Source: Erysipelotrichaceae bacterium (GTDB lineage: Bacteria > Bacillota_I > Bacilli_A > Erysipelotrichales > Erysipelotrichaceae). Taken from it: DNA of 39,499 nt. The notes beneath the pieces are model-generated. The model saw nothing but the letters and a program-made list of their open reading frames with translations, ran no database searches and had not been told where the DNA came from. Both the position numbers and the translations under genes were made by a program. The first letter of the stretch is position 1. Each line of letters starts with the position of its first letter. Positions 22,332 through 39,374 of the stretch are shown in pieces. Location: contig SVBJ01000016.1 in the NCBI GenBank assembly GCA_015058955.1, positions 1 to 39,499 on the forward strand, read 5' to 3'.

Positions 22332-23607
22332 TGTCATTGGCGCCGGACTGGCGGGAAGTGAAGCAACCTGGCAGCTGATCCGCAAAGGATACAGAGTCAG
22401 GCTGTTTGAAATGCGCCCGCAGAAAAGCACGGGGGCTCATAAGACCGGAGAATTCTCTGAACTGGTCTGTTCCAACAGCTTACGCTCCAATGCCCTGACC
22501 AATGCGGTTGGATTACTGAAGCAGGAAATGAGGGAACTTGATTCCCTGATCATGAAAGCGGCAGATAAGCATGCCATCCCGGCCGGAAGCGCCTTAGCCG
22601 TAGACCGCGAAGGCTTTGCCAGAGAGATCACGGAGACCCTGAGAAATCATCCGCTGGTGGAAATCGTAAGCGAAGAAGTCACTTCCATACCGCAAGGACC
22701 GACCATCATAGCTACCGGACCTTTAACCAGCTCACCGCTGGCCAAGGCCATTAAGGAACTGCTGCAGGAAGATTCGTTCTATTTCTTTGATGCGGCTGCT
22801 CCAATCGTTACGAAAGAATCCATCAACATGGATATCGCATATTATAAGAGCCGTTACGACAAGGGTGATGCTGACTACATCAACTGCCCGATGACAAAAG
22901 AGCAGTTTGACGCCTTCTATGATGCCCTGATTAACGGGGAAACCGCTGAAGTCCACGACGTGGACAAGGAGATCTACTTTGAAGGCTGCATGCCGGTGGA
23001 GGTAATGGCCAAAAGAGGACCGCAGACTCTTACCTTCGGACCGCTTAAGCCGGTCGGACTGGAAAAGGACGGCCAGCGTCCTTATGCCGTGGTACAGTTA
23101 AGACAGGACAATGCTGTCGGTACCCTGTACAACATCGTGGGATTCCAGACCCATCTGAAGTGGGGAGAACAGAAAAGGATCTTCTCCATGATCCCGGGAC
23201 TGGAAAACTGTGAAATAGTAAGATACGGTGTCATGCACCGCAATACATACATCAATTCGCCGCGAGTTCTGCTGCCTACCTATCAGACCAGGATCAGAAG
23301 TGACCTGTTCTTTGCCGGGCAGATGACCGGGGTGGAAGGCTATTGTGAATCTGCTGCCAGCGGTCTGCTGGCGGGACACAACATGGCGCTGTTACTGGAA
23401 GGTAAAAAACCAGTGGTTCTGCCGGATACTACCATGATCGGGGCCATGGCTCATTATATCGTCAACGCTGATGACAGATACTTCCAGCCGATGAATGCCA
23501 ATTTCGGCATCTTCAATCTGGAACATTTCGTTCCGAAGAAGCGGCGCAAGGACGCCTACAGCGTTCAGGCTCTGGAAGTACTGAAGCAGTACAGTCAGGA
23601 GTGGTAG
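22315..23607 (+). CDS. trmFO: tRNA (uracil-54-C5)-methyltransferase, folate/FAD-dependent
   Basis: 430 residues. FAD-binding start [17 protein letters not shown], then [27 protein letters not shown] (family signature), and [22 protein letters not shown] near the C-terminus with the conserved cysteine. TrmFO makes m5U54 in the T loop using methylene-tetrahydrofolate and FADH2; it is the Gram-positive counterpart of TrmA. The start lies within topA, so translation is probably coupled; the next start follows its stop by one base. Order topA-trmFO-xerC is conserved in Bacillota. Confidence 0.96.
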
Positions 23608-23608
23608 C

Positions 23609-24499
23609 ATGGAAGACTATCTGGAAGAGTTTCTGATCAATCTCAATACCGTCAATTCAGGCTCAGCGCATACCGCTGATTCCTATCGCCGTGACATAAA
23701 GCGCTTCATTGACTACTGCACGATTGAGGGATGTGAAAGCTTCAATGACGTTGACCGTACCGTGGTATTGGGCTTCATCAATTACCTGCGCATGGGAAAG
23801 AATGCTCTGTCAGACCGTTCTCTGGCCCGCAACCTGAGTTCCTTACGCTCATTCTACCGTTATTTAAATGCTTCCGGTTACGCTGACAGTAATCCTTTTG
23901 CGTCGGTCAAGTCGCCTAAGAAAACTGATAAGCTGCCGGATTTTCTTTATGAAGATGATGTTGACCGCTTTCTGGGCTGCTTTGACCTCAATGACGATCA
24001 GGAATATCGCAACCGTACGATGTTTGAAATGATGTATGGCTGCGGGCTGCGTGTTTCCGAGGTCGCCAACATGAAGATATCCGACCTGGATTTCGCCAAT
24101 GATGTGGTAACGATCGTGGGCAAGGGTTCCAAGGCCCGTATCGTACCGTTTTATCCTGTGATAAGGGAACTGCTGCAGAACTATCTGAAAGCCGTTCGTC
24201 CGCATTTTGTGGGTGAGCAGGAGCATGACTATGTCTTCGTCAATAACAGGGGAAGTAAACTGACCAGCAGGGGAATCGAATACATTCTGGATTCCTCAGT
24301 GCGTCAGCACGGTCTGATGATGAAGATCCATCCTCATGCCTTAAGGCATTCCTTTGCCACTCATTTGCTGGCAGCAGGGGTGGACATCAGGGTCGTGCAG
24401 GAACTGCTGGGCCATGCCAGACTGTCAACTACCCAGATATACACACATGTCTCAATGGAGCATCTCCGAGAGGCATATGATAAAGCTTTTGAAAAATAA
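23609..24499 (+). CDS. xerC: Tyrosine recombinase XerC (CodV-like)
   Basis: 296 residues. N-terminal SAM-like core-binding domain (about 1-90) and C-terminal catalytic domain with Arg148 (GCGLRVSEV), Lys173, His243 and Arg246 (HPHALRHSFATHLL), His269 (LLGHARLSTTQ) and the nucleophile Tyr278 (IYTHVS): all catalytic residues are present. Together with a partner it resolves chromosome dimers at dif. Its position after topA-trmFO marks it as the housekeeping recombinase and not a phage integrase; the clpQ/clpY/codY genes that follow in Bacillus are absent here, rpsB being next. Confidence 0.93.
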   Translation: MEDYLEEFLINLNTVNSGSAHTADSYRRDIKRFIDYCTIEGCESFNDVDRTVVLGFINYLRMGKNALSDRSLARNLSSLRSFYRYLNASGYADSNPFASVKSPKKTDKLPDFLYEDDVDRFLGCFDLNDDQEYRNRTMFEMMYGCGLRVSEVANMKISDLDFANDVVTIVGKGSKARIVPFYPVIRELLQNYLKAVRPHFVGEQEHDYVFVNNRGSKLTSRGIEYILDSSVRQHGLMMKIHPHALRHSFATHLLAAGVDIRVVQELLGHARLSTTQIYTHVSMEHLREAYDKAFEK

Positions 24500-24530
24500 A
24501 AAATATATGTGTACATGCACATATTTTTTA
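24498..24530 (+). terminator. xerC terminator
   Basis: ATATGTG (24505-24511) pairs with CACATAT (24518-24524), flanked by an A run that can extend the stem and followed by six T. Confidence 0.7.
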
Positions 24531-24539
24531 TGATATGAT
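24510..24539 (+). promoter_or_regulatory. rpsB promoter, partly inside the terminator
   Basis: TGTACA (24510-24515), 18-base spacer, TATGAT (24534-24539) with a TGn extension (TGATATGAT). The -35 lies in the loop side of the xerC terminator. Confidence 0.55.
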
Positions 24540-24545
24540 TTATAA

Positions 24546-24667
24546 GGCACTTTTTTATGTGCCATTACACACACCATGGATTCGGTAATCCGTGCATCAG
24601 ACCTGATTTGGTGTTATTACCGTTGGAAATGGTGGAGGAACAACGGAAAGAGAGGAAAAAAGAAAGA
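24546..24667 (+). promoter_or_regulatory. Structured rpsB leader (candidate S2 autoregulatory RNA)
   Basis: About 120 bases without a convincing gene contain several stems in series: GGCAC (24546-24550) with GTGCC (24559-24563); GGATT with AATCC; ATCAG with CTGAT; and CCGTTG (24620-24625) with CAACGG (24641-24646), the last enclosing a decoy-like GGTGGAGGAA about 35 bases before the true start. The real RBS is probably GAGAGGAAA further down. Such multi-stem leaders before rpsB are known in several bacterial groups; the exact class was not identified. Confidence 0.5.
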
Positions 24668-25627
24668 ATGTCAGTTGTTACAATGCGTAAGCTGTTAGAA
24701 GCAGGCGTACACTATGGCCATCAGACAAGAAGATGGGATCCAAAGCAGAAGCCAAACATCTATGCAGCAAAGAACGGAGTCCACATCATTGATTTGAACA
24801 AGACTCAGGAACAGATCGATGTTGCTTATGCAGCATTAAGAAGAATCGCCGAGAATGGCGGCAGAGTTCTGTTTGTCGGAACCAAGAAGCAGGCTCAGGC
24901 CATCGTCATGGAAGAAGCTCTGCGTTCAGGTTCATTCCACGTAACTCAGCGTTGGCTGGGCGGTACCTTAACTAACTACCGCACGATCCAGAAGCGTATC
25001 AGAAGATTACTGGAAATCGAACAGATGGAAGAAAACGGCGGATTCGACAACTATACCAAGAAGGAAGTTGCCGGTATCAACAAGGAAAAGGCCAGACTCG
25101 ATAACTTCTTAGGCGGTATCAAGGAAATGAAGAAGCTCCCTGATGCAGTATTCGTAGTAGATCCTAAGGAAGACTACAATGCCGTTCTGGAAGCCAGAAA
25201 GTTACACATTCCTGTCTTCGGTATCTGTGATACAAACTGTGACCCAGCTCTGGTTGACTATGCCATCGCCGGAAACGATGATGCAGTAAAGGCAATCAAG
25301 TTATTAGTCGGTGTCATGGCTGACGCCATCGTTGAAGCTAAGCAGGGTATCCTGGAATTTGCCTACACACCTGATGAGGGTGCTGAAGTTACAATGGAAG
25401 ACGTTATCGTTAACGTTCAGGAAGTTGCCGCTGAAAATGAAAGAAGAAGAAAGCAGCGTTTCGAAGAAAGAAAGCAGCAGAACAACCGCAACAATCAGCG
25501 TCGTTACAACAACAGAAGAAACGAACAGCCTAAGGCTGAAGAAGCCCCAGCAGGTGAGGCTCCAGTAGTTGCTGAAGCAGTACCGGCTGAAGAAAAAGTT
25601 GAAACCCAGGAGGAAACAAATGAGTAA
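24668..25627 (+). CDS. rpsB: 30S ribosomal protein S2 with long C-terminal tail
   Basis: 319 residues from ATG 24668 ([26 protein letters not shown], the standard S2 start); the frame is open further upstream but that part is leader. The S2 fold runs to about residue 250 (normal total about 240-255). Residues 257-319 are an extra low-complexity tail: first rich in Arg, Asn and Gln, then rich in Glu, Ala, Pro and Val. S2 binds late to the 30S neck, near S1's site. The stop overlaps tsf by 8 bases, so EF-Ts translation is coupled. Confidence 0.96.
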
Positions 25628-26510
25628 TTTAATTCAGTTAGTTCAGCAGTTAAGAGAAAGAACCGGCGCAGGCATGATGGACTGCAAAAAGGCTCTGGAA
25701 GCATCTGATTTAGACATGGACAAGGCAATCGACTGGTTAAGACAGAAGGGTATTGCCAAGAGCGCTTCAAAGGGTGACAGAATTGCTGCAGAAGGCGCAT
25801 CAAGCGTTTTAGTAAACGGCAATAAGGCAGTCATTCTGGAAGTCAACTCTGAAACAGACTTCACAGCCAGAAACGACAGATTCCTGCATGCAGTCAAGAC
25901 CATCGCTGAAGGCTTATTAAACAGCGATGCCAAGACTCTGGAAGAAGCCAAGGCAGTAGCTACTGCTGAAGGTCCGGTTTCTGAAGTATTATCTTCTATC
26001 TCATTCGCAACAGGCGAAAAGATGGATTTAAGAAGATTTGAACTGGTTGAAAAGACTGATGATCAGTTCTTCGGCCCATACATCCACATGGGCGGCAAGA
26101 TCGCTGCTCTGGCTGTAGTTGAAGGCGGAAACGATGAGGTTGCCAAGGATGTCGCAATGCAGGTAGCTTCAATGAATCCAACTTACATTGACAGAGATCA
26201 CATGCCTCAGAGTGAAGTAGAACATGAGAGAAACATCCAGATCGAAATCGCCAAGAACGATCCTAAGAATGCCGGCAAGCCAGAAAACATCATCTTAAAG
26301 ATGGTTGAAGGCCGTGTTTCCAAGGCATTACAGGAAGTCTGCCTGGTTGACCAGATCTACTTCCGTGATGGAAGCTCCAAGGTTGCAGCATTCTTAAAGG
26401 CTAACAATGCCAAGTGTGTCAAGTTCATCCGTTACGCTACAGGCGAAGGAATTGAAAAGAGAGTAGACAACTGGGCAGAAGAAGTTGCCAACGCTGTAAA
26501 GGATTTATAA
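25620..26510 (+). CDS. tsf: Elongation factor Ts
   Basis: 296 residues from ATG 25620 (RBS AGGAGG). N-terminal UBA-like domain [23 protein letters not shown], then [12 protein letters not shown], the family signature that contacts EF-Tu, and the two-part dimerisation core. It catalyses GDP release from EF-Tu. rpsB-tsf is an almost universal pair; pyrH and frr, which often follow, are absent, a terminator and a transporter gene coming next. Confidence 0.97.
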
Positions 26511-26523
26511 GATTTCCTGAAAT

Positions 26524-26553
26524 AGAACAGTACGAAAGTGCTGTTCTTTTTTT
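26524..26553 (+). terminator. tsf terminator with GAAA tetraloop
   Basis: AGAACAGTAC (26524-26533) pairs with GTGCTGTTCT (26538-26547), one G-T pair, loop GAAA, then seven T. A strong intrinsic terminator. Confidence 0.92.
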
Positions 26554-26554
26554 G

Positions 26555-26583
26555 TTGCTAAACAGATCAAAAAAGAATAGAAT
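26555..26583 (+). promoter_or_regulatory. Promoter of the ECF transporter gene
   Basis: TTGCTA (26555-26560), 17-base spacer, TAGAAT (26578-26583), starting right after the tsf terminator. Confidence 0.6.
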
Positions 26584-26584
26584 A

Positions 26585-26658
26585 ATGACGGAAAAGTAGT
26601 CATATCCCTATAAGGGGCGTGAAGAGCGTACCACGGGAATGAAAGCGGAGGTTTTTTT
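26585..26658 (+). promoter_or_regulatory. Structured leader of the ECF transporter gene, class unknown
   Basis: The 75-base leader contains ATGAC (26585-26589) pairing with GTCAT (26599-26603), then CCC/GGG around TATAA (26606-26616), then a G/C-rich stretch that could pair in more than one way with CCACGGG (26631-26637). The RBS GGAGG (26647-26651) is separated from the ATG by seven T. A vitamin-responsive element would fit a vitamin transporter, but no known riboswitch class was recognised. Confidence 0.35.
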
Positions 26659-27243
26659 ATGAGAAACAAGAATACCAAGAAACTGGTAACCACAGCCTTA
26701 CTGGCAGCAGTAATCATTGTCCTGCAGACCGTTGCCAGCGGCATCAGAATCGGGCCTTTTACCCCGACTCTTTCTTTGATTCCTATCATCATCGGAGCAC
26801 TGTTATACGGACCGATGGTAGGCGGATTTCTGGGTGCCGTATTCGGCGTGATCGTCATCATCGGCGTTCTTACCGGCAGTGAACCGATGAGCACCATGAT
26901 GATGCAGACCAATCCGGTAATGACCGTTGTTCTGTGTCTGGCCAAGGGCATCGCAGCCGGTGTCATTCCGGCTCTGGTCTACAATGTTCTTAAGGATAAG
27001 AATGATTTAGTCGCCACGGCACTGGCAGCCATTCTGGCTCCCGTCAGCAATACCGGCATCTTCTCAATCGGATTATTAACCGTATTCATGCCGATTGCCG
27101 AACAGTTTGCTGCGCAGTTGGAATTTCCTAATGTAGCCAAGTTCCTGTTTGTCGGAATCATTGGGACCAACTTCCTGTTTGAACTGGCAATCAACGTTGT
27201 ACTGGTACCGGTGGTAAAGAGAGTACTGAAGGTAATAGATTAG
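26659..27243 (+). CDS. ECF transporter S component, probably for pantothenate
   Basis: 194 residues, very hydrophobic, with five to six predicted membrane helices; the N-terminal TKKLVTTALLAAVIIVLQ and the AxxxAxxxG-type small-residue helix (GGFLGAVFGVIVIIG) resemble ECF S components, which bind a vitamin and work with a shared EcfT/EcfA energising module (not in this window). The next gene, 9 bases downstream, is pantothenate kinase, so pantothenate is the most likely substrate (PanT-like). Substrate is inferred from context; other vitamins cannot be excluded. Confidence 0.78.
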   Translation: MRNKNTKKLVTTALLAAVIIVLQTVASGIRIGPFTPTLSLIPIIIGALLYGPMVGGFLGAVFGVIVIIGVLTGSEPMSTMMMQTNPVMTVVLCLAKGIAAGVIPALVYNVLKDKNDLVATALAAILAPVSNTGIFSIGLLTVFMPIAEQFAAQLEFPNVAKFLFVGIIGTNFLFELAINVVLVPVVKRVLKVID

Positions 27244-27252
27244 GAGAAAACT

Positions 27253-28023
27253 ATGTTATTAACGATAGACATGGGCAACAGTAACATTGAAATAGGGTTA
27301 CTTGACGGCAGTGAAGTAGTATTAAGCGAGAGAGTAGCGACTGATCTGGGAAAGACAGCCAGCGAATACGCCGTGCTGATCCATTCGATTTTTGAAATAC
27401 GCAATGTAAACATTGATGAAATCGAAGGTGGCATAATTTCCAGTGTCGTTCCGCCTCTGACTTATGAACTCAGAGATGCCGTAAAGAAGGTTACCGGCAA
27501 GACACCGCTGATCGTGGAACCGGGAATCAAGACCGGCATGAAGATCAGGATTGATGATCCAAGAACCCTGGGTGCTGACCTGCTGGTCGGTGCCGTAGCG
27601 GCAGAAAAGCTTTTTGGTGCCCCGGCTATCATTATTGACATGGGTACGGCTACAACCGTTACGGTTGTTGATAAAAACGGCAACTTTGTCGGCGGCGTGG
27701 TAATGCCGGGAGTGGCACTGTCACTTAATGCACTGTCTTCCGGTACTTCCAAGCTTCCCAAGATCAATCTTACCGCACCTAAAAAAGTCGTCTGTACGAC
27801 GACTGAGGACTGCATGAGTGCCGGAATGGTCTACGGACAGGCATCAATGCTGGATGGCCTGATTGATAAGATGGAGAAGGAACTGGGCTATCGCTGCAAC
27901 CGCATAGCCACCGGAGGCTTAGCCAGACTGATCGTGCCTTATTGTGAAAGAGAGATCACTCTCGACAATAATCTCATGCTGGAAGGGCTGAAGATAATCT
28001 ATGACAGAAACAGAGCTTCGTAG
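27253..28023 (+). CDS. coaX: Type III pantothenate kinase
   Basis: 256 residues. ASKHA-fold kinase: MLLTIDMGNSNIEIGLLDG at the N-terminus, PRTLGADLLVGAVAAEK, and IIDMGTATTVTVVDKNGNFVGGVVMPG, all CoaX signatures. It phosphorylates pantothenate in the first step of coenzyme A synthesis and, unlike type I enzymes, is not inhibited by CoA. Close linkage to the transporter gene suggests salvage of external pantothenate. The stop codon is in the loop of the terminator. Confidence 0.95.
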   Translation: MLLTIDMGNSNIEIGLLDGSEVVLSERVATDLGKTASEYAVLIHSIFEIRNVNIDEIEGGIISSVVPPLTYELRDAVKKVTGKTPLIVEPGIKTGMKIRIDDPRTLGADLLVGAVAAEKLFGAPAIIIDMGTATTVTVVDKNGNFVGGVVMPGVALSLNALSSGTSKLPKINLTAPKKVVCTTTEDCMSAGMVYGQASMLDGLIDKMEKELGYRCNRIATGGLARLIVPYCEREITLDNNLMLEGLKIIYDRNRAS

Positions 28024-28034
28024 GAAGCTCTTTT
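28012..28034 (+). terminator. coaX terminator containing the stop codon
   Basis: AGAGCTTC (28012-28019) pairs with GAAGCTCT (28024-28031); the loop GTAG holds the TAG stop. Four T follow. Confidence 0.8.
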
Positions 28035-28324
28035 CATTCGGGATGAATGAATGATACGGTTTCCGCAATGATGGTGCAGATTCCCTCTCTGTTTTCCAGA
28101 CGGCCTTTTACCGCCAGGAGGGAACCCTCAGGGTATCTTTCGGTAATGATTTCGCTGAGACCGCGCCATAGATGCACGGTAAATATATCGCTTTGAGGCT
28201 GGCCATCCGGGTCCTTGTAAGTACGCTGAACTTCCAGCTCGACTTGGGAATAGGCCATTCCATCCCTGGTAAAATCGTGGGGCAGGGACTTGAGAACGCC
28301 TATCAGTACTACCTGATTCAACAT
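28034..28324 (-). CDS. Small SSB-like single-strand DNA-binding protein
   Basis: 96 residues, only an OB fold: MLNQVVLIGVLKSLPHDF, VELEVQRTYKDPDGQPQSDIFTVHLWRG, LLAVKGRLENREG. This is the N-terminal part of the SSB family; the flexible linker and the acidic C-terminal tail ending in DDDIPF-type residues, needed for protein partners, are absent. It is therefore probably an accessory SSB or a primosome-type OB protein and not the replication SSB. It is convergent with coaX and divergent from the flavodiiron gene. RBS AAAGGAG on the minus strand. Confidence 0.82.
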   Translation of the reverse strand: MLNQVVLIGVLKSLPHDFTRDGMAYSQVELEVQRTYKDPDGQPQSDIFTVHLWRGLSEIITERYPEGSLLAVKGRLENREGICTIIAETVSFIHPE

Positions 28325-28342
28325 GAAAAAACTCCTTTCAAT

Positions 28343-28409
28343 ACTAATTAGTGTGTTATGACGGAAATCCCTTAAGTTATTCCGTTTTTTATTGTAGAAT
28401 TTGGATAGA
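28343..28409. promoter_or_regulatory. Palindrome, hairpin and promoter region between ssb-like and flavodiiron genes
   Basis: A 10-base palindrome ACTAATTAGT (28343-28352) lies near the SSB-like start. ACGGAA (28361-28366) can pair with TTCCGT (28380-28385), which runs into six T, a weak terminator-like hairpin in the plus direction. A possible promoter for the flavodiiron gene has TAGAAT (28395-28400) as -10 with a poor -35 (TTAAGT, 17-base spacing). An operator role for the palindrome is possible; no regulator is identified. Confidence 0.35.
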
Positions 28410-28430
28410 TACCCAGGAGGAAAGAAAATA

Positions 28431-30431
28431 ATGCATTGTGTAAAGAAAGTTTTGGAAGATCTTTTATGGATCGGAGCGGATGACCGCCGTGTGCCGGTCT
28501 TTGAGGGGGTATATGAAGTTCCTAATGGAATGTCATATAACTCCTATCTGCTGCTTGATGATAAGACAGTTGTTTTTGACACTGTCGATAAGGCAGTAGG
28601 CGAACAGTTCTTCGAAAATCTGAAATACGGTCTTAACGGGCGTCATCTGGATTATCTGGTAGTTCACCACATGGAACCGGATCACGCCGCCACCATCGGA
28701 AATCTGTTATTGAGATATCCTGATGTCACCATCGTCTGCAACGCGAAGATCAAGACATTCATGCTGCAGTTCTTCCCGGAAGTGAAGGATGCAAATTTCC
28801 AGGTAGTTGACGAAAGCTCAGCTCTGGAAACCGGGCATCACAAGTTTGTCTTTGTCAATGCCCCAATGGTTCACTGGCCGGAAGTAATGATGTCATATGA
28901 CCTTGAGAAAAAGGTGCTGTTCAGTGCCGATGCCTTTGGCGTCTTCGGAGCTCTTAACGGGCACATCTTCGCTGATGAAGTTGATTTCATGGGCGACTGG
29001 CTGGATGAAGCCAGAAGATATTACACCAACATCGTCGGCAAGTACGGCCCTCAGGTACAGAATGTCCTGAAGAAGGCCAGTACCTTACAGATCGACTATG
29101 TCTGCCCGCTGCATGGTTTTGTATGGCGCCGCGGTTTCGGTGACTTTGTGGAAAAGTACGGTATCTGGAGTTCCTACGGTTTTGAAAAGAAGGGCGTCTG
29201 CCTTGCATATGCATCCGTTTACGGACATACTGAAAATGTTGCTAACATACTGGCTGGCAAGCTGGTTGACAGAGGCGTAGATGTGGAAATGTATGACACA
29301 TCGATGATCCCTGCCAGCAACATCATCTCAGCAGCCTTCAAGTATTCTCATCTGGTACTGGCTTCAACAACTTATAACAACGGCATGTTCGTGACCATGG
29401 AGAACCTGGTAAACGACATGGTGGCTCATAATCTTCGCAACAGAAAGGTCGCCATCATCGAGAACGGTTCCTGGGCTCCACAGGCCGGTAAGCTGCTGCT
29501 GGAGAAGCTTACGACCATTCCTGGTACGGAATTCTTTGATAACAAAATCACGCTGAAATCAGCTCCTGGCGCTTCTACGGAAGAGGAACTGGAAGAACTG
29601 GCCAATGCCATCGCTGCCGACATCATACCGGCACCTAAGGCTGCGATCCCTAAGGGAGAACTGGTAAAGGCTGAAGTTGTTCCGGAAGCATTCTTCAACC
29701 TGACCTACGGTCTGGAATTGCTGACAACGAAGTTTGAAGGCAAGGACTACGGCTGCATTATCAACTCCGCTGCTCAGGTGGCTGACGGTGAAGTCAAGAG
29801 CATGGCTATTTCCGTCATCAACAAGAACTACACCTGTGAACTGATCAAGAAGACCGGTGAGTTCAACGTTTCCGTCTTTACTGAAAGCGTTCCGTTCAAG
29901 GTATTTGAACATTATGGTTTCCAGTCAGGAAGAAATGTGGACAAGTTTGCGGATGTCGATTACGATACCCGCCTGGCTAACGGCATAATCTACTTCCCGT
30001 ACCATGTCAATGCAGTATTCGGCTGCAAGGTCGTTGCTTCATTTGACTTAGGCAAATCAACATTATTTATCGCTGATGTTGTGGAAGCAAGGACACTTAA
30101 CAGAGAGCCAAGTGCCACCTATGCCTTCTACCATGCTCACATCAAGCCGAAGAAAAAACCGGCTGTGGAGCAGAAGGAAGGCTGGAGATGCAAGGTCTGC
30201 AACTACTTCTATGAAGGAGCAGAATTACCGGCTGACTTTGTCTGTCCGTTATGCAACCACGGTCCGGAGGACTTTGAATATGTTCCGGCTGTGAAGATCG
30301 AAAAGAAGAAGGGCTTCGTCTGCAAGATCTGCGGTTACTTTGAACCGTATGAAGGCGATGCCTTACCGGCTGATTATTCCTGCCCGTTATGCAATCACGG
30401 ACCGGAAGATTTCGAACCGGCTGAGATGTAA
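28431..30431 (+). CDS. Flavodiiron protein with flavin-reductase and two rubredoxin domains
   Basis: 666 residues from ATG 28431 (AGGAGG 10 bases upstream). Domains: metallo-beta-lactamase-like diiron domain (1-250) with ligands His80, Glu82, Asp84, His148, Asp167 and His228 all present; flavodoxin domain (about 257-395, [13 protein letters not shown] binding FMN); flavin-reductase-like domain (about 415-570); two rubredoxin domains (585-618, CKVC...CPLC, and 629-666, CKIC...CPLC). Flavodiiron proteins reduce O2 to water or NO to N2O in anaerobes. Both rubredoxin knuckles read CPLCNHG in place of the usual CPxCG, and the domains are short. A separate rubredoxin gene follows 26 bases later. 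Classical FprA has only the first two domains. Confidence 0.93.
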
Positions 30432-30457
30432 TCAATCATAAACAAGGAGGAGCTTAC

Positions 30458-30616
30458 ATGGAAAAATACGTATGCACTGTCTGCGGATACACCTATGATC
30501 CGGAAAAGGGCGCACCTGAAGCAGGAATCGAACCGGGAACACCGTTTGAAGAACTGCCTGAAGACTTCGTCTGCCCGGTATGCGGTGTAGACAAGAGTCT
30601 GTTCGAAAAGGAATAG
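30458..30616 (+). CDS. Rubredoxin
   Basis: 52 residues: [20 protein letters not shown] at the N-terminus, then a central [20 protein letters not shown], ending [11 protein letters not shown]. The two CxxCG knuckles (Cys6/Cys9 and Cys39/Cys42) bind one iron; the length is standard. It is a small cytoplasmic electron carrier and probably passes electrons to the flavodiiron protein just upstream and to desulfoferrodoxin. RBS AAGGAGG at 30444-30450. The last gene of this operon, followed by a strong terminator. Confidence 0.97.
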
Positions 30617-30628
30617 TCTGATGAAAAG

Positions 30629-30659
30629 CCACAGCATAAGCTGAATGCTGTGGTTTTTT
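30629..30659 (+). terminator. Terminator after rubredoxin
   Basis: CCACAGCAT (30629-30637) pairs with ATGCTGTGG (30645-30653), then six T. A runs on the other side could let it end a minus-strand transcript from the adjacent gene remnant as well. Confidence 0.9.
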
Positions 30660-30736
30660 CATGCCTTGATTCTGTGATATACAAGCCTGTAGAGCAGGTA
30701 ACTGCCAGCTGTTATCGCACCAAGATATATCAGTAT
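30659..30736 (-). pseudogene. 3' remnant of a TIGR02206/YwaF-like membrane protein gene
   Basis: Read on the minus strand this encodes 25 codons plus TGA that align without gaps to the C-terminus of the intact gene at 33765-34511. 23 of 25 residues are identical (ILIYLGAITAGSYLLYRL shared), while the DNA shows 13 differences in 75 bases, mostly synonymous. An in-frame stop and loss of similarity begin just beyond 30736. Hence a truncated second copy that had diverged under protein-level selection. It forms the left edge of the AT-rich accessory segment, and the intact copy forms the right edge. Confidence 0.85.
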
Positions 30737-30763
30737 TGATCAATCTAGACATATTTATATAAT
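30736..30763 (+). promoter_or_regulatory. Possible promoter at the remnant junction, upstream of the XRE-type gene
   Basis: TTGATC (30736-30741), 16-base spacer, TATAAT (30758-30763). A second TATAAT occurs at 30872-30877. The 240 bases from 30764 to 31002 hold no gene that I can support; they are AT-rich with no clear hairpin terminator, and would form a long leader. Confidence 0.4.
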
Positions 30764-31002
30764 GGTTTTTTCCACTGTATACTGTTTGTGTTTCAATTAT
30801 TATTTTAGTAATCGGAAAGGTATTTCCTGTTAAACTATAGAAATCGCCGTTTCTTTTGTAGGTATTGGTTTTATAATTTAATTGAAATAATGAAGTGAGA
30901 TGACCAGATATGTTCTGATGGTTTATCATAACATATGTAATATGGCCGGATGCAAATAATACAATTACTGTGTTTTCTAAAACAATACAGCAGGAGCAGA
31001 AA

Positions 31003-32214
31003 ATGGAAAACGTTAATAGAGAAAAAATTGCCGAGTTTTTGCTGAAACTAAGAAAAGAGAATGGATTAACTCAGGAACAGATGGCAAAAATAATGTATGT
31101 AAGCGAAAAAACCATACGAAATTGGGAACAGGGGAAAACTCTGCCAAGTATGGAAGATCTTGTTATGATAGTTAATACTTTTTCTGTTTCGCTAGAATCA
31201 GTTTTCAAAGGCGAATGCGATAAAGATGAGAAAATGCAGATCAGATTAAATGAATTGGATGATAGCATTGATACAATTGTTTCCAGGGTTTCCATAAATG
31301 AAAAAAATATATGTAGTCTAAAGCATACAATAGGTAGTACAAATCCTTCAAACAATAATTCATTAATGTGGTTAATTCTTTTTACTACACATACATTATC
31401 AGCTGCTGTTTATTTTATGTGGTATCATACAGGACATATTCTGCCTGTTTATGCGTTTCTGTGTTCTTGTCTGTACATTTTTTCCGTGCTGACAATAATA
31501 ATCTTAAACAGGAAAAGCCAGCCTGTTTTATCCGTAATCAGTATTTACTCTTTACTATGCCTAACAAACATGTATGTTAATTATCAGGTTTTCAACGAAT
31601 ATTCGAAAGGCGTAATTTATAATGCATGGTTAGCGTTCATTAATGGTCCTGTCTATGGATTATCATACATATGCTGGAATAACATGGATAAACTGAAGAA
31701 CATATCAATTGTTATGTATTCTGCTTTTATTATTATCTGTGTTGCCTTTATTATCTATGAGAGAAAAGAGGTTTTTGTGGCACTTCTCAAGAGACATAAA
31801 AAACTGATAATTATTCGGACATTAGCCAGTATGTTTATTGTAACAAGCATAACAGCATTTAAACCTGTAGGAGATATTTCAGGCGTAAGAGTAGATATAC
31901 AGGGCTCGAATATTTTTTCTGAAGAAGACTTTTCAAAAGCTGTAGAGGTAATAAAGTCGAGTTTTAAGAGAAATGGAAGAGGATGCCGGCTTTTGAAAAT
32001 CAAATATATAGGTGATAGTGCGAATGAGAGTGTAGGGTGTAAATCAGTTGTTGAAAGATATAACCTTCGGAAATACATTGTTTTTGAAATAACACGGGAA
32101 GTAAGCAACAGGTTTTTCCAAAGTGATTTGTCTGGTGTACACGATCACTATAATCTATGGATTGGGACAAAAGATGGATATAATTGGGCTATTATTGATG
32201 GAGGAGGCGTTTAG
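31003..32214 (+). CDS. Membrane-embedded XRE-family regulator with C-terminal sensor-like domain
   Basis: 403 residues from ATG 31003 (AGGAG 6 bases upstream); a GTG at 30970 is in frame but lacks an RBS. Residues 7-62 form an XRE/Cro-type helix-turn-helix (LRKENGLTQEQMAKIMYVSEKTIRNWEQGK). A linker follows, then five to six membrane helices (about 117-300). The last ~105 residues form a soluble domain with FSEEDFSKAVEVIKSSFK, a cysteine pair and a final YNWAIIDGGGV; this pattern resembles a domain seen in Firmicutes lipoproteins of unknown role. The protein is likely a one-component membrane sensor that controls the amidase gene 3 bases downstream (inferred). Codon use is clearly AT-richer than in neighbouring genes. 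Confidence 0.85.
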   Translation: MENVNREKIAEFLLKLRKENGLTQEQMAKIMYVSEKTIRNWEQGKTLPSMEDLVMIVNTFSVSLESVFKGECDKDEKMQIRLNELDDSIDTIVSRVSINEKNICSLKHTIGSTNPSNNNSLMWLILFTTHTLSAAVYFMWYHTGHILPVYAFLCSCLYIFSVLTIIILNRKSQPVLSVISIYSLLCLTNMYVNYQVFNEYSKGVIYNAWLAFINGPVYGLSYICWNNMDKLKNISIVMYSAFIIICVAFIIYERKEVFVALLKRHKKLIIIRTLASMFIVTSITAFKPVGDISGVRVDIQGSNIFSEEDFSKAVEVIKSSFKRNGRGCRLLKIKYIGDSANESVGCKSVVERYNLRKYIVFEITREVSNRFFQSDLSGVHDHYNLWIGTKDGYNWAIIDGGGV

Positions 32215-32217
32215 ATC

Positions 32218-33312
32218 ATGAAAAAGAAAGTTTTAATTGTCATTGTTATTTCAATGCTTGTATTTTTATCAAACAAAAAAGAAATCAAAGCAAATTCAAT
32301 GAAAAATGATATTAGCAATATTGCTTATGAGTTTGACTATCCTTTACTGGAGTCAATAGGAGAAGTTGTAAGTGGTGGTTCAGTTGAGATAAGCGGTAAA
32401 CAAAATCATCTTTACAAAGTGTTCTCCAATAGAGAAACTGCACTTGAAAATCTCAAAACGCAGGAGACCGATGCGCTTGAATATATTGCTAAAAAAGGGC
32501 ATTTTGATGAATTAACACATTCAAATTACATGCAATATTACTCTGAATTAATGCAAATAGAATATGAAGAAATTAAAAAAACAATGAGTACAAATAGTTA
32601 TAACGTACTATTGCAGTTTTTTGACATTTATGAAAACGATGATTGCAATGAAAGAATTATTAAAACTATGCAGAATAATTCTTTGAATCAATCACAAAAG
32701 GAAGAAGTTCTAGCCTATGAATTACCTTATTATGACAATGCTGTTGTTGATTACTTTAGCAACCATCATTCTATAGAAAACAGATCTTTCAATGTTACAA
32801 ATGCAAATACTTATGCATATGCAAATGCTGGAAATACTTCGAGTAGTACTTATGGATATGTATACAGTAGTGATGGGAATCCTGCAGATTGCGCTAACTT
32901 TGCATCACAGATACTAATAGCGGGAGGCGAGAGTATGGTTAACACTTTCCCTAATGTGTATAGTGGATGGTGGCATGTTAATCTGGTTGTAGAGCATAAG
33001 TACTCGCGTTCATGGTCATTTGCGCCAACATTTGCAACATATCATTCAAGCTCATCTTTCGCTACAAGAACATATAGTACATTTACATCTAAGCTGCAAG
33101 GCGGTAGTTTTATAGCATTTGATAAAGGAAATGATGGCAGTTATGATCATATTGCATATGTAACTTCAGTAAACAACTTCATGAGTGGTGGATACTATGA
33201 TCACAATATTGCTCAACATAGTCCTAATTATTATAACTCTGCAAGTTATTCCATGTGGCCGTCACTGGAGGATGGTGTTTGCTGGTTTTTAGTAATAAGA
33301 GGCGGAAAGTAG
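32218..33312 (+). CDS. Secreted amidase-domain (Amidase_6-like) protein
   Basis: 364 residues. Signal peptide at residues 1-25 (KKKVLIVIVISMLVFLS, cut near IKA-NS). A helical middle part (30-185) rich in charged residues. The C-terminal domain (about 195-345) has NPADCANFASQILIAGG with Cys225, SGWWHVN, SRSWSFAPTF, SYDHIAYVTSVN with His311, and NIAQHSPNYYN with His334: the Cys-His layout of the putative amidase domain PF12671. Such proteins are thought to act on cell wall or peptide amide bonds, but the substrate is not known. Starts 3 bases after the regulator gene, RBS GGAGG. AT-rich like its partner. Confidence 0.85.
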   Translation: MKKKVLIVIVISMLVFLSNKKEIKANSMKNDISNIAYEFDYPLLESIGEVVSGGSVEISGKQNHLYKVFSNRETALENLKTQETDALEYIAKKGHFDELTHSNYMQYYSELMQIEYEEIKKTMSTNSYNVLLQFFDIYENDDCNERIIKTMQNNSLNQSQKEEVLAYELPYYDNAVVDYFSNHHSIENRSFNVTNANTYAYANAGNTSSSTYGYVYSSDGNPADCANFASQILIAGGESMVNTFPNVYSGWWHVNLVVEHKYSRSWSFAPTFATYHSSSSFATRTYSTFTSKLQGGSFIAFDKGNDGSYDHIAYVTSVNNFMSGGYYDHNIAQHSPNYYNSASYSMWPSLEDGVCWFLVIRGGK

Positions 33313-33376
33313 TACGACAATTCTTTGAGAATGAGTCTATTTTGTTTATAGTAGTACTATAATGGTATTGACCAAA

Positions 33377-33392
33377 TAGTGTGTACACACTA
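33377..33392. promoter_or_regulatory. 16-base perfect palindrome, operator-like
   Basis: TAGTGTGTACACACTA is identical on both strands. TTGACC lies four bases upstream, so a factor bound here would cover a promoter spacer. The role is inferred from form and position only. Confidence 0.45.
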
Positions 33393-33440
33393 AATGGAAA
33401 TGCCATATTGTGTTGGAGACGAAATTCAACGAGTGTGTGA

Positions 33441-33464
33441 AAAGACCGGTGAAAACTGGTCTTT
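33441..33464 (+). terminator. GAAA-loop hairpin downstream of the amidase gene
   Basis: AAAGACCGGT (33441-33450) and ACTGGTCTTT (33455-33464), one G-T pair, GAAA loop. Only three T follow, so termination may be weak; it could also be a stabilising 3' end for the regulator-amidase mRNA. Confidence 0.45.
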
Positions 33465-33624
33465 AATGTGGTCTGAAATAACGGTTATTGAATAGTATAA
33501 TCTTGCTTGATTATATCTTACATGATGCGTTTTCTTCCTCTGGCAGAATCTCTGATACTCTTAGTGTTGTAGAGCAAAGATGTCTGATTATAAAGGAGTT
33601 TTACTATTGTGAGGAATTCTAACC

Positions 33625-33654
33625 ATTGTGTTTTTCTTGCCCACACAATTTTTT
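33625..33654 (+). terminator. Probable intrinsic terminator in the intergenic region
   Basis: ATTGTGT (33625-33631) pairs with ACACAAT (33643-33649), followed by six T. It implies that some plus-strand transcript runs up to here. Confidence 0.6.
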
Positions 33655-33730
33655 AGTTAACATAATAACTCAAATAAATTGTTTTATACATACGCTTGAA
33701 GTAACAACAGGCAAAGGGCTTTGCCCAAAA

Positions 33731-33754
33731 CGAAAAATCACCCGCTTGCGGGTG
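33731..33754 (-). terminator. Terminator of the YwaF-like gene
   Basis: CACCCGC (33739-33745) and GCGGGTG (33748-33754) form a tight hairpin with a short loop; on the minus strand it is followed by ATTTTTCGTTTT. Confidence 0.85.
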
Positions 33755-33764
33755 GGATAGTTAT

Positions 33765-34511
33765 TCATGCTTTGATTTGGTGGTACATAAGTCGGTACAG
33801 CAGGTAACTGCCGGCTGTTATGGCACCAAGATATATTAATATTCCCGGCAGTATGCCAAGAGAAACGGATATTTCATGGAATACCGGCTGGGTGGTTGGA
33901 TAGTATGGAGTGATGTAGAACATGTTGGCTTCAACATGGGTGTCGTTGATGATGTGATGGCTGATGATATTTATTACTTCAGCAATTACCGCCATAATAG
34001 CAAATAGAACTATTGCCGGAGTAAAGGACACTTTCTGTCTCTGTCTTAAGATCAGTATGGCGGCAATACATTCAATTATCATGATACCGTGATAGAAAAA
34101 ACCATGAACAAACAGCCAGATCTGCGGTCTCATCATATCGTATGGCAATACCAGGGCAATTATGGCTGCCAGCAGGGAATAGGTGGCCAGAAAGGTTAGT
34201 ACGGTATCCTGTAATTTACCTTTCAGGAAAGGAATAACTATTGAACAGTACATGGCCATGGAACAAAGCTGCCAGGGGAAAAACCAGGCTGATGGTCCGT
34301 CAGTATAGACGTATCTGGGGACAAACCACTGTTTCCATGCTTCACCGATGACCATTATCAGGCCAAGGATTCCCAGTATCCTTATCAGGGTCTGCTGTTT
34401 CCGGTTTTGCATCAGCGCATAAAAAAGAAAAGACAGGACGATTATGCCCGCTAAAATGGCGAGATGAATGAACCCGAATATTTCAGGGGTATGATTAAAA
34501 GTAATGTCCAT
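33765..34511 (-). CDS. TIGR02206/YwaF-family integral membrane protein
   Basis: 248 residues with about seven membrane helices spread over the whole length. The short motif PWQLCSMAMYCSIVIPF (near residues 79-95) resembles the conserved P-x-x-[LH]-C segment of the TIGR02206 (YwaF) family; the C-terminus is ILIYLGAITAGSYLLYRLMYHQIKA in pieces shared with the remnant at 30659-30736. The molecular function of the family is unknown. RBS AAAAGGAG on the minus strand. It is monocistronic and divergent from thyA. Confidence 0.82.
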   Translation of the reverse strand: MDITFNHTPEIFGFIHLAILAGIIVLSFLFYALMQNRKQQTLIRILGILGLIMVIGEAWKQWFVPRYVYTDGPSAWFFPWQLCSMAMYCSIVIPFLKGKLQDTVLTFLATYSLLAAIIALVLPYDMMRPQIWLFVHGFFYHGIMIIECIAAILILRQRQKVSFTPAIVLFAIMAVIAEVINIISHHIINDTHVEANMFYITPYYPTTQPVFHEISVSLGILPGILIYLGAITAGSYLLYRLMYHQIKA

Positions 34512-34538: not shown

Positions 34539-34618
34539 CAGGGAAACAGTGAGGCAGTCCAATGAAAATACTTTCACAGTTTTTTCACTGCTAAGGTAAT
34601 GAAAAATGGTGTCATAAC

Positions 34619-34627
34619 TGTTAAAAT
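34619..34627 (+). promoter_or_regulatory. thyA promoter (extended -10)
   Basis: TGTTAAAAT: TAAAAT (34622-34627) with a TGn extension and no clear -35. RBS GCGAGGA follows before ATG 34653. Confidence 0.45.
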
Positions 34628-34652
34628 ATAAGAAGAACTGCGAGGATATAAT

Positions 34653-35525
34653 ATGAAACAGTACATCGACATGTGTAAATACATTCTGGAAAACGGACAG
34701 CACCGTCAGGACCGTACCGGTACCGGCACTATTTCCGTTTTCGGCTATCAGACAAGATATAATCTGGAGGAAGGCTTTCCTCTGTTAACGACCAAGAAAG
34801 TGTTCTTTAAGGGCATTGCCAAGGAACTGCTGTGGTTTATTTCCGGCTCAACGAATATTCAGCCTCTGGTAAAGGATAACGTCAGGATCTGGAATGAATG
34901 GCCATATGAGAAGTTTAAGAAATCAGACATCTACAATGGCGAAACCATGGAAGAGTTCGTGGAAAGGATCAAGACCGATGATGAATTTGCCCTCAAGTGG
35001 GGTGATTTAGGTCCGGTATATGGCAAGCAGTGGCGTGACTTCTTCGGCACTGACCAGCTGATGAACGTCATTGAGCAGCTCAAGACCAATCCGTTCTCCA
35101 GAAGACACATCGTGGTTGCCTACAACCCGGCTCAGGTCAAGGACATGGCCTTGCCGGCCTGTCATGCGTTCTTCCAGTTTTATGTCAGCGCTGACGGCAA
35201 GAAGCTCTCACTGCAGCTTTATCAGAGAAGCGCCGATACCTTCCTGGGAGTACCTTTCAACATCGCTTCCTATGCCTTACTGTTAACAATGGTGGCACAG
35301 GTCTGCGGTTACGAGCCTTATGAAATGGTACACACCTTCGGTGACCTCCACATCTACAACGACCACCTGGAACAGATCAACGAACAGATCTCCAGAGAAC
35401 CGAGAAAGCTTCCAAAACTGATCATCAATCCGGATGTGAAGGATATCAGAGATTTCAAGTATGAGGATTTCCAGATCGTGGATTATGATCCATGGCCGGC
35501 AATCAAGGGTAAAGTAAGCGTATAG
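34653..35525 (+). CDS. thyA: Thymidylate synthase
   Basis: 290 residues, longer than the 264 of E. coli ThyA because of an insert around residues 85-125, common in other ThyA proteins. Catalytic cysteine in [24 protein letters not shown] binds dUMP phosphate; [27 protein letters not shown]-equivalent [13 protein letters not shown], and the closing [14 protein letters not shown] are typical. It makes dTMP from dUMP with methylene-tetrahydrofolate. The usual partner dihydrofolate reductase does not follow; a pyrimidine-nucleoside phosphorylase does, 17 bases later, so the operon joins dTMP synthesis with thymidine salvage or breakdown. Confidence 0.97.
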
Positions 35526-35542
35526 AGAAAGGGGAATGAAAG

Positions 35543-36838
35543 ATGCATTTTGTTGATATTATTGAAAAGAAGAAAAGAAAAGAAGTACTGACTGATGAAG
35601 AAATTGAATTCTGGATCAAGGGATATGTTGACGGCAGCATTCCTGACTATCAGGTAAGTGCTCTGTTAATGGCCATTGTTCTCAATGGCATGACTGATGA
35701 AGAGATCTCTACTCTGACCAGATGCATGATGAACAGCGGCGATATCATTGACCTCTCCTCAATTCCGGGAATCAAGGTCGACAAGCATTCCACCGGCGGT
35801 GTTGGCGATAAGACATCACTGTCATTAATGCCGATGGTTGCCAGCTGTGGCGTCAAGGTTGCCAAGATGTCAGGACGCGGCTTAGGCCATACCGGGGGAA
35901 CTCTGGATAAACTGGAATCAATTCCGGGCTTCTCCATTTCACTGACTGAGGAAGAGTTTGTTCAGCAGGTAAGCGATATCGGCATTGCCCTGATAGGGCA
36001 GACCGGTAATCTGGTTCCGGCTGATAAGAAGATATATGCGTTACGTGACGTAACCGGCACGGTTGATTCAATTCCGCTGATTGCCAGCTCCATCATGTCC
36101 AAGAAACTGGCGAGCGGAGCCGATGTCATCGTTCTTGACGTCAAGTACGGTAACGGTGCCTTCATGCCAACCATGGAAAAGGCAGAGGAATTATCTGCTC
36201 AGATGATCAGGATCGGCCAGTCCTTCGGCAAAAAGGTTGCTGCCTGCATCTCTTCAATGGATCAGCCTCTGGGCAATGCCATCGGCAATGCTCTGGAAGT
36301 AAAGGAAGCCATTGATACCTTAAAGGGCAAGGGACCTAAGGACTTCACTGAACTGTGTGTTGTTACCGGTGCGGTAATTCTGGAACAGGCCGGTGTCGGT
36401 ACCCGTGAAGAATGCATCAAGATGATGGAAGACAGCATTTCTTCCGGACGTGCTCTGGAAGTTCTCAAGCAGCTCATCCATGCCCAGGGCGGTGATGAAA
36501 GAGTCGTTGATGATCCTAGACTGCTGCCAAAGGCTCATTACGTAACAAAGCTGAAATCCTACAGAAGCGGTTATGTTCATGATTTGCCGGCTAAGCCGTT
36601 AGGAATTCTGGCCATGAATCTGGGTGCCGGACGTGAACACATTGATGACGTTGTTGATCCGGCAGTAGGCATCGTTCTCAACAAGAAGGTTGGCGACCAT
36701 GTCAACAGAGGCGAGGAACTGGCCTTTGTATACCATAACAAGCCGCTGGAAAGAGAATGGCTGCAGCGTTTCTATGAATCAGTAGAACTAGTCAATGAAC
36801 CATTCGAACCGGCTCCGGTAATTGAAAAGGTAATCTAA
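35543..36838 (+). CDS. pdp: Pyrimidine-nucleoside phosphorylase
   Basis: 431 residues. Signature HSTGGVGDKTSLSLMP and KMSGRGLGHTGGTLDKLESIPGF in the first 125 residues bind phosphate and the nucleoside; C-terminal PYNP domain (about 345-431, AGREHIDDVVDPAVGIVLNKKVGDHV). It splits thymidine, uridine and related nucleosides with phosphate. The length and sequence fit Pdp of Bacillota; specificity versus thymidine-only DeoA cannot be told here. RBS AAAGGGG. Directly abuts the next gene (no gap). Confidence 0.95.
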   Translation: MHFVDIIEKKKRKEVLTDEEIEFWIKGYVDGSIPDYQVSALLMAIVLNGMTDEEISTLTRCMMNSGDIIDLSSIPGIKVDKHSTGGVGDKTSLSLMPMVASCGVKVAKMSGRGLGHTGGTLDKLESIPGFSISLTEEEFVQQVSDIGIALIGQTGNLVPADKKIYALRDVTGTVDSIPLIASSIMSKKLASGADVIVLDVKYGNGAFMPTMEKAEELSAQMIRIGQSFGKKVAACISSMDQPLGNAIGNALEVKEAIDTLKGKGPKDFTELCVVTGAVILEQAGVGTREECIKMMEDSISSGRALEVLKQLIHAQGGDERVVDDPRLLPKAHYVTKLKSYRSGYVHDLPAKPLGILAMNLGAGREHIDDVVDPAVGIVLNKKVGDHVNRGEELAFVYHNKPLEREWLQRFYESVELVNEPFEPAPVIEKVI

Positions 36839-37138
36839 ATGAAACAGGTCGACAGAATCAGAAAGATGGAGTCCATCATGGACAATGCCAAGGCTGCCAT
36901 TGACAGACTTGACGGTGCTCTGGAAGAATACAATGCCCTGAAGAAGGACATTGACAAACTGGCTGCCTATTACGAAAGCCAGCAGTGGCTTAAGGACTTT
37001 ACCGATGATGAAAAAGGCAAGCTGCCAACTGATCTCAAGCGCGGTGTACTGTCCGAAGATGGGGTATATGATTTGCTGGAAGATGAAAGAGAACTGATCG
37101 GAAAGCTGTTAAAGACAGTAAACGGTTATATTAAGTAG
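36839..37138 (+). CDS. DUF4298-like small helical protein
   Basis: 99 residues, mostly alpha-helical. The pattern LAAYYESQQWLKDFTDDEKGKLPTDLKRGVLSEDGVYDLLEDE, in pieces, matches the DUF4298 family (central YY-S-x-W-x-x-D and GVLSED). Function unknown. The ATG directly follows the phosphorylase stop codon, so it is co-translated with pdp. It has no signal peptide or membrane segment, so it is cytoplasmic. Confidence 0.8.
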   Translation: MKQVDRIRKMESIMDNAKAAIDRLDGALEEYNALKKDIDKLAAYYESQQWLKDFTDDEKGKLPTDLKRGVLSEDGVYDLLEDERELIGKLLKTVNGYIK

Positions 37139-37175: not shown

Positions 37176-37217
37176 TTGAAATGCTGCTGGTTTACCGGCA
37201 ACAATAAAGGGGTATAT

Positions 37218-39374
37218 ATGAAAAGAGTATTAAAAATCATTCTTGTTGTGGCAATTGTATTTACAGGTATTTTTACCTGGAATCCTGTACATGCTGAAGA
37301 GAAGGCAGAAATTGAAAGGCTTTACGGTTCCAACCGTTACCAGACGAGTCTTACTGTTGCTGCTGAACTGAAGGATGTACTGGGAAAGGAACAATTCTCG
37401 TCAGTTGTATTGACAACAGGCAGTAACTTCGCAGATGCCTTAAGCGGTGCATATCTGGCTAACACTAATAACGCGCCAGTGATTCTTATTAACGGTAATT
37501 CTGCTGCCGATGTTCAGACATTTCTCAGGGATAATCTGGAAAAAAGAGGTAATGTATATGTTCTGGGCGGTGAAAACGCGGTGCCTTCTTCCTGGCTGGG
37601 AAATCTTAAAGACAGATTTTCAATTATCAGATTGGAAGGCAGTAACCGTTATGGAACCAACATCAACATTCTTAATGAAGTGGAATATGAGGGTGGTGAA
37701 ATACTGGTTTGTACCGGAAATGGGTTTGCAGACAGTTTAAGCGCAAGTGCTGTCGATATTCCTATTCTGCTGGTTAACACGGCACTTAATGATGAACAGA
37801 AGAAATTCCTAAAGGATAAGAAAGACATCAAGTTCATTATTATTGGCGGTGAGGCAGCTGTATCTAACAGTGTTGCCGGTGAATTGGTAAGATACGGCAG
37901 CGTTGAAAGAGTCTATGGTGCAAACAGATATGAAACATCAGCCAAAATAGCTGAGAGATTCTTTGATAATCCTGAACAGGTCGTTCTGGCGTTTGGTAAT
38001 ACCTTCCCGGATGGTTTAAGTGGTGGCCCGCTGGCTTATGCCTGCAATGCTCCTTTACTTCTGGTCAATTCAACTGATAATGGAAGCAAATTTGCTGTAA
38101 AATACACTGCTGACAGTGTTGGTAAAGGATATGTATTAGGCGGCAGCGGTTTGATCGATGATAAGACAGCAGGGAAAATAATTGTCCCTGTTGAAGAAAA
38201 GGCCCAGGAAATCATACTGTGGCATACCTGGACATCCGAGAGTGAACGGTTAATTGCAGACATTGTTGAGGCATTCAACGCTGAAAACAAAGGCAAGTAT
38301 CATGTGACTCAGGAAACTCAACCATTTGACGGTTTTGATAGCAAGACTTATGAAGCTGTTATAAGTGGTAATGGTCCAAGTCTTGTAATTTCGTATCCTA
38401 ATACTGTCGGATCATATGTTGAAAAAGGAGTTTTGCTGGATTTCGGTAAATACTTTATGGACTCTGATTATAAAGACCGTGTTGGGGCAGGAATTTATAA
38501 AGCGTCAACGGATTTCGGAGATGGTGGATTATATGCTATAGCCACAACACTTACCGGCCAGGTGATGTTTTATAATAAAGACCTTTTGGAAAAGTACAAT
38601 CTTACTGTTCCGACTACATGGGATGAATTGTATGATGCCTGTAAGACTGTAGTGGATGGTGAAAAAGCTGCTGGTAATAATATTATGGGATTTGGTCCGG
38701 ATTCATATGACGCAATGGCTATTATCGCACTTGAGCAGCTGGGGCTTCACTATATTGATGATGCACACACTGCAGCTGATTGGACAGATGATAAGTTCAT
38801 TAATTGGCTAAACTGGTGGAAGAAAGCCGAAGAAGATGGTTACTTCCGGCTATTAGATGCTGAAGGATATCACTCCGGACCATTTGGGAACGGAAACTAC
38901 CTTTGCTACATGGGTTCATCTGCAGGTGCGGCATACATCTTTCCTGATGGATTCACAGTAGCTACAGGATCTGTTCCGCAGGTTGTAGATGGCAAGGTTT
39001 ATAATGAAGTTACATCACGTGCTCTGATTGGCTTTACCAAGGACAATAAAACAGATGAAGGCGCAGCTGAGTTTGTCAAGTACTTCATCCAGTCACAAAA
39101 TAATCTGCAAATGTGTAAACTGTACAACGCAAGTACTCCATTTAAAGATGTCGAAGAAACTGATGCCTGTCAGCAGTATTATAAGGAAAATATTGCTGCT
39201 GGAGCTTTGGCTGAATTGGTTCCAAATTCAGGTTTAAGACCAGCTGTAACGGGCGAATTAGAGGCCAGAGAAGCATTAAAGGCTGCCATAACAGAAATAC
39301 TCTACCAGGATGCTGATGCATACCAGGCATTGTTAAAGGCCCAGCAGATTGCTAATGCTGAACTGGCAAAGTGA
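37218..39374 (+). CDS. Cell-wall-binding repeat protein fused to an ABC-type solute-binding domain
   Basis: 718 residues from ATG 37218 (AAAGGGG 5 bases upstream). Signal peptide 1-26 (cut at VHA-EE), not a lipobox. Three CWBR2 (PF04122) repeats follow, beginning ERLYGSNRYQTS (34-45), IRLEGSNRYGTN and ERVYGANRYETS, each with a later FADALSG/FADSLSA/FPDGLSGG motif. From about residue 330 (EIILWHTWTSESERLIADIV) to the end is a bacterial extracellular solute-binding fold of the sugar-binding type (MFYNKDLLEKYNLTVPTTWDEL; NGNYLCYMGSSAG). CWBR2 repeats hold proteins on wall polymers in other Firmicutes. No ABC permease is adjacent within the window. Ligand unknown. Confidence 0.88.
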   Translation: MKRVLKIILVVAIVFTGIFTWNPVHAEEKAEIERLYGSNRYQTSLTVAAELKDVLGKEQFSSVVLTTGSNFADALSGAYLANTNNAPVILINGNSAADVQTFLRDNLEKRGNVYVLGGENAVPSSWLGNLKDRFSIIRLEGSNRYGTNINILNEVEYEGGEILVCTGNGFADSLSASAVDIPILLVNTALNDEQKKFLKDKKDIKFIIIGGEAAVSNSVAGELVRYGSVERVYGANRYETSAKIAERFFDNPEQVVLAFGNTFPDGLSGGPLAYACNAPLLLVNSTDNGSKFAVKYTADSVGKGYVLGGSGLIDDKTAGKIIVPVEEKAQEIILWHTWTSESERLIADIVEAFNAENKGKYHVTQETQPFDGFDSKTYEAVISGNGPSLVISYPNTVGSYVEKGVLLDFGKYFMDSDYKDRVGAGIYKASTDFGDGGLYAIATTLTGQVMFYNKDLLEKYNLTVPTTWDELYDACKTVVDGEKAAGNNIMGFGPDSYDAMAIIALEQLGLHYIDDAHTAADWTDDKFINWLNWWKKAEEDGYFRLLDAEGYHSGPFGNGNYLCYMGSSAGAAYIFPDGFTVATGSVPQVVDGKVYNEVTSRALIGFTKDNKTDEGAAEFVKYFIQSQNNLQMCKLYNASTPFKDVEETDACQQYYKENIAAGALAELVPNSGLRPAVTGELEAREALKAAITEILYQDADAYQALLKAQQIANAELAK

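Follow-up and report, generated by a model that had tools for sequence, protein, structure and literature searches.

Gene content and setting of the block

The window analysed here, a stretch of 39,499 nucleotides, is one entire contig (C10) of the 1.78-Mb draft genome of an Erysipelotrichaceae bacterium (G000). Between a rubredoxin gene and thyA lies a block of ~4 kb that contains an intact ywaF-like gene, the 3′ end of a second copy and, between the two, a regulator gene, an amidase gene and the remains of two insertion sequences (Table 1). The protein encoded by the intact gene scores 50.6 bits against PF14808, for which the cut-off is 25, and is thus a member of the YwaF/TMEM164 family. 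Scans of the window and the block against Rfam, and scans for tRNA and tmRNA genes, returned nothing that would account for the block as a tRNA-linked island.

Table 1. Features of the rubredoxin–thyA interval (positions in the window)
Feature	Position	Strand	Evidence or remark
Rubredoxin gene, left anchor common to G008	30458..30616	+	PF00301, E 8e-24; G008 alignment runs to 30615
Hairpin of a two-way terminator, separating rubredoxin from the ywaF remnant, CCACAGCAT...ATGCTGTGG	30624..30658	.	Inverted repeat and terminator scan
ywaF-like 3′ remnant, last 25 codons and TGA, in frame, convergent with rubredoxin	30659..30736	-	
AT-rich spacer (29% GC), left junction of the foreign DNA	30737..31002	.	
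XRE-type helix-turn-helix regulator	31003..32214	+	HTH_3, PF01381, E 1.7e-12
Secreted Amidase_6 protein, putative cell-wall amidase	32218..33312	+	PF12671, E 1.6e-15
Internally deleted ISL3-family relic	33361..~33646	-	Transposase end and both flanking end sequences
IS200/IS605-type right end, hairpin CACCCGC..GCGGGTG and ..TTATT	33714..33765	+	Right-end matches
Intact ywaF-like gene, TMEM164/YwaF family, 248 aa	33765..34511	-	PF14808, E 2.3e-13
thyA and upstream region, right anchor common to the congener	34588..35525	+	Protein 97% identical

Two further genes of the window encode multidomain proteins. Directly before the free rubredoxin gene, positions 28401–30431 encode a 676-aa protein in which an ODP-type beta-lactamase-fold domain is fused to a flavodoxin-like part, a flavin-reductase domain and a pair of rubredoxin-like zinc ribbons; its counterpart in G008 is 82% identical, and other congeners have one too. 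At 37176–39374, a 732-aa protein has three cell-wall-binding CWB2 repeats fused with an ABC-type extracellular solute-binding domain, an uncommon tether for a substrate-binding protein.

The closest congener among the public records searched is the goat-duodenum Erysipelotrichaceae MAG RGIG2297 (G008). It is collinear with the window over 20371–30615 (81%) and 34596–37099 (84%), and in G008 these two blocks are 38 bases apart. The order there is rubredoxin, terminator, thyA, with neither ywaF copy in between, and the hairpin at the rubredoxin 3′ position differs from that of the window. The sole close ywaF of G008 (75% protein identity) sits on another contig, next to a ROK-type gene and an acetyltransferase-like gene (names read from the sequences). 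Therefore, the entire block, including the intact ywaF, is missing from the G008 junction. The earlier note had proposed looking for relatives in which rubredoxin, a single ywaF and thyA are contiguous; G008 does provide a junction free of the block, but one that holds no ywaF at all. Moreover, nothing in G000 is collinear with the ywaF locus of G008, and the move of ywaF is hence untraceable. Three other congeners were inspected. In them the rubredoxin gene lies behind the frd gene, and the short stretches read downstream of rubredoxin contained no thyA or ywaF.

The same comparison bears on the assembly. The genome is in 37 contigs with an estimated contamination of 4.45%, and the block lies on a contig that is taken whole as the window, all of which would suit a chimeric metagenome assembly. 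However, both flanks match one G008 contig in order, and the two ywaF copies are just 83% identical, too little for a collapse or misjoin through an exact repeat. We regard a chimera as highly unlikely.

Divergence of the two ywaF ends

When 33765–34511 was used as a DNA query against the whole genome, the single other match was 30659–30737 (84%, E 3e-17). A repeat finder paired 30655–30737 with 33761–33843 at a constant offset of 3106 and 83% identity. The two ends align in frame and ungapped, reading ILIYLGAITAGSYLLYRLVYHRIKA in the remnant and ILIYLGAITAGSYLLYRLMYHQIKA in the intact gene, each followed by the stop codon, and their 13 nucleotide differences amount to 7 synonymous codons and 2 amino-acid changes. 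Upstream of 30737 there is no similarity to the intact ywaF and the match ends abruptly. The left copy is without the ~223 codons beyond this point; a later deletion would leave the same picture as a join without long homology.

Over the 25 codons dS is 0.96, a rough value resting on 18.5 synonymous sites, and dN is 0.055 (Nei-Gojobori). Our between-species yardstick is the single comparison of G000 with G008; in this comparison dS is 1.11 for thyA, 1.15 for frd and 0.59 for the pyrimidine phosphorylase gene. The divergence of the two ywaF ends is about that between congeneric species. In none of 20,000 selection-free simulations were 13 changes placed with so few amino-acid changes, and the ends diverged under strong purifying selection. 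Given this selection and a dS of between-species size, both ends were functional while they diverged, and truncation of the left copy is recent. The earlier note had described 30659–30736 as the last 25 codons and stop of the gene at 33765–34511, ungapped at an offset of 3106 and with these same counts of synonymous and amino-acid changes, and had concluded that the remnant diverged as a working gene before truncation; coordinates and counts are correct, and the divergence data agree with its conclusion.

Evolution of both ends under selection is also what would be expected of two copies that had been kept, that is, of old tandem ywaF paralogues between which other DNA gathered before most of the left copy was deleted. 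Both ends share the C-terminus RL.YH.IKA, which differs from that of G008, as such a history might predict, and a family relative (G010) has two ywaF-type genes, though on separate contigs. A tree of 25 codons cannot distinguish between import of an allele and old paralogy. However, a second ywaF 3′ end was seen at 0 of 27 ywaF loci of other genomes (flanks of 8 kb or less), the congener G008 has a single close copy, and the AT-rich, insertion sequence-scarred interior requires an extra event. Tandem paralogy is thus an unlikely explanation, if one that agrees with most of the observations and retains appreciable weight.

Interior of foreign composition and insertion sequence relics

The GC content of both the regulator and the amidase gene is 0.333, and that of the left and right spacers is 0.291 and 0.348 respectively, compared with 0.480 for frd, 0.474 for thyA, 0.434 for the intact ywaF and 0.454 for the whole window. 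The previously claimed difference in codon use between the regulator-amidase pair and its surroundings is confirmed, as is the shift in GC, and together they support an interior of foreign composition.

The amidase gene begins 3 bp after the regulator gene. The regulator has a membrane-spanning middle and an outer C-terminal part, with an alternative GTG start at 30970; its PADLOC hits proved to be merely to its HTH. Relatives in congeners are partial (25–35% identity over the first ~250 aa), and none is linked to the amidase. Relatives of the amidase occur in 7 other genomes among 273 of the family, none of them of the genus, and there are none in the eight congeners searched. The interior was not found in the genus, apart from the matches to the HTH and to insertion sequence ends. 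Viral contigs held no relatives of the regulator, the amidase or ywaF, whilst plasmids and phages gave distant amidase matches only and ywaF was absent from plasmids. In two other genomes (G038 and G147) small exported-looking proteins are encoded right after Amidase_6 genes (L214 3020–3427 and L211 3697–4188). They weakly resemble the outer C-terminal part of the regulator (31870–32214), with E values of 0.19 and 0.04, at which identity of the two domains is not established; an amidase-partner domain common to both is possible.

Since the anatomy of the block is symmetric and composition does not reveal which ywaF allele is the resident one, the import may also have come from the rubredoxin side. 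In that case the resident part would be the cassette together with the intact ywaF, and the remnant and its terminator would be the ragged end of the incoming piece. Against this, it is to the interior that the foreign composition and the amidase absent from the genus belong, and we consider an import from this side improbable.

The 450-bp spacer from the amidase gene to the intact ywaF holds two decayed insertion sequences. One end of the first occupies 33361–33471, of which 33364–33471 matches intergenic DNA of a further genome (G003) at 83%; other family members have shorter matches, either next to ISL3 transposase genes or where a contig ends. On the minus strand, 33488–33583 corresponds, at 56% identity and with an in-frame stop, to the last 32 codons of an ISL3 transposase that itself matches PF01610 (E 1.6e-43), and 33587–33646 matches the sequence on the opposite side of that transposase gene. 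From these matches the relic is a decayed ISL3 copy minus most of its middle. The second relic matches IS200-type right ends in G002 (84–88%), G260 (86%), G006 and G189. The matches take in the hairpin and the TTATT tip, and the relic thus has both the subterminal hairpin and the conserved tip of the IS200/IS605 group. Elsewhere G000 carries an intact IS200-type element, the ends of which are similar, though not identical, and flank a Y1 transposase gene. The tip of the relic coincides with the stop codon of the intact ywaF, directly behind which lie tandem IS200-type hairpins (33708–33756). On the minus strand the hairpin and the ATTTTT behind it were scored as a ywaF terminator in the terminator scan and, as judged from the sequence, can serve as one. 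With its own start and this new terminator, ywaF has probably kept its function. The left spacer (30738–31010) gave no insertion sequence match in the 273 family genomes and none to ISL3 or IS200 left ends. Hence the statement that the block contains no transposase or integrase stands as far as intact genes are concerned, but overlooks these two relics.

Integrative elements leave the target gene whole, with its displaced 3′ end on the far side of the element. This layout fits the block, as it would if a small element had inserted site-specifically at the ywaF 3′ end, bringing a replacement 3′ end, and had since lost its integrase. A 14-base identical block at the inner edge of the ywaF similarity could be seen as a trace of such an event. 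However, this block is no longer than a second identical block within the coding match, and the inner edge of the 3′ flank of the intact ywaF is an IS200 end rather than an attachment arm. Moreover, none of the ORFs in the block was recognised as coding for an integrase, the arrangement does not recur at the 27 other ywaF loci, and the regulator and amidase are without close relatives on viral contigs, with phages and plasmids yielding the distant amidase matches alone. We therefore think an integrative element very improbable. To the broader idea, that the ywaF 3′ end is an integration site for small regulator-amidase cassettes which carry a synonymous replacement end and use an integrase from elsewhere, we attach hardly any credence.

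A proposed one-sided import anchored in ywaF and thyA

The best-supported reading, and one that we favour somewhat beyond an even chance, is that the block is a scar of horizontal transfer, left by a one-sided homologous or homology-facilitated illegitimate import anchored in ywaF/thyA. The original order would have been rubredoxin, terminator, a convergent ywaF and thyA. A piece of DNA from a related species would then have brought in a ywaF of its own with, behind this gene, the scars of IS200 and ISL3 and the genes for regulator and amidase. The incoming DNA may have paired with the resident locus by homologous exchange via ywaF and/or thyA, its other end being joined without long homology inside the resident ywaF, near codon 223. 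Such a join would replace the first ~223 resident codons and leave the last 25 as the remnant, with the regulator and amidase gained as passengers. The remnant lies where the end of a resident gene convergent with rubredoxin is expected, the two-way terminator being common to both genes.

From this genome and its relatives of other species we infer in which sequence the events took place, from which side the import came and how the DNA recombined; neither crossover point nor the direction is directly seen. Likewise, a single ywaF between rubredoxin and thyA is an assumed intermediate rather than an observed one, as the G008 junction is without ywaF. The earlier suggestion that a segment, or the flanking allele, was imported by homologous recombination is partly upheld by the diverged working copies, the foreign composition of the interior and the block-free G008 junction.

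In homology-facilitated illegitimate recombination (HFIR) the incoming DNA is homologous to the recipient at one end and is joined illegitimately at the other, and the recipient loses DNA (PMC3240628). Products have been obtained in Streptococcus pneumoniae, Acinetobacter baylyi and Pseudomonas stutzeri, and the rate is low outside competent species (PMC3240628). The block resembles these products in that the insert has homology to the resident locus at one end; its other end would have been joined without long homology, at the cost of resident DNA. The homology at one end is found in the in-frame ywaF ends and in thyA with its upstream region, which is collinear with G008. It differs in that the event is read from a single natural locus, for which the exchange point, the 3–10 bp of microhomology at the illegitimate junction and competence would be predicted. 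Kirchberger et al. propose HFIR for Vibrio T6SS arrays, in which displaced genes remain downstream of the newcomer, and cite the same idea for the orphaned 3′ ends of Rhs loci (PMC5361080). As with T6SS effector-immunity and Rhs loci, the newcomer's version would here displace part of the resident gene, with the resident 3′ end staying downstream. In contrast to them, ywaF is no toxin gene with interchangeable ends, there is one remnant, and there is no hint of selection keeping it. The ISL3 relic shares the transposase C-terminus and both flanking end sequences with its family, and the IS200/IS605 relic the hairpin end with the TTATT tip; unlike elements of these families, the relics are decayed and lie inside the block rather than at its outer borders.

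Taken together, the block is most likely a known, ordinary type of gene-transfer scar and no new mechanism is indicated. The two relics show that non-coding DNA can yield insertion sequence fragments which a reading based on ORFs passes over. Moreover, the block illustrates cleanly, at one locus, how a Firmicute of the rumen or gut may gain two genes whilst the resident gene stays whole.
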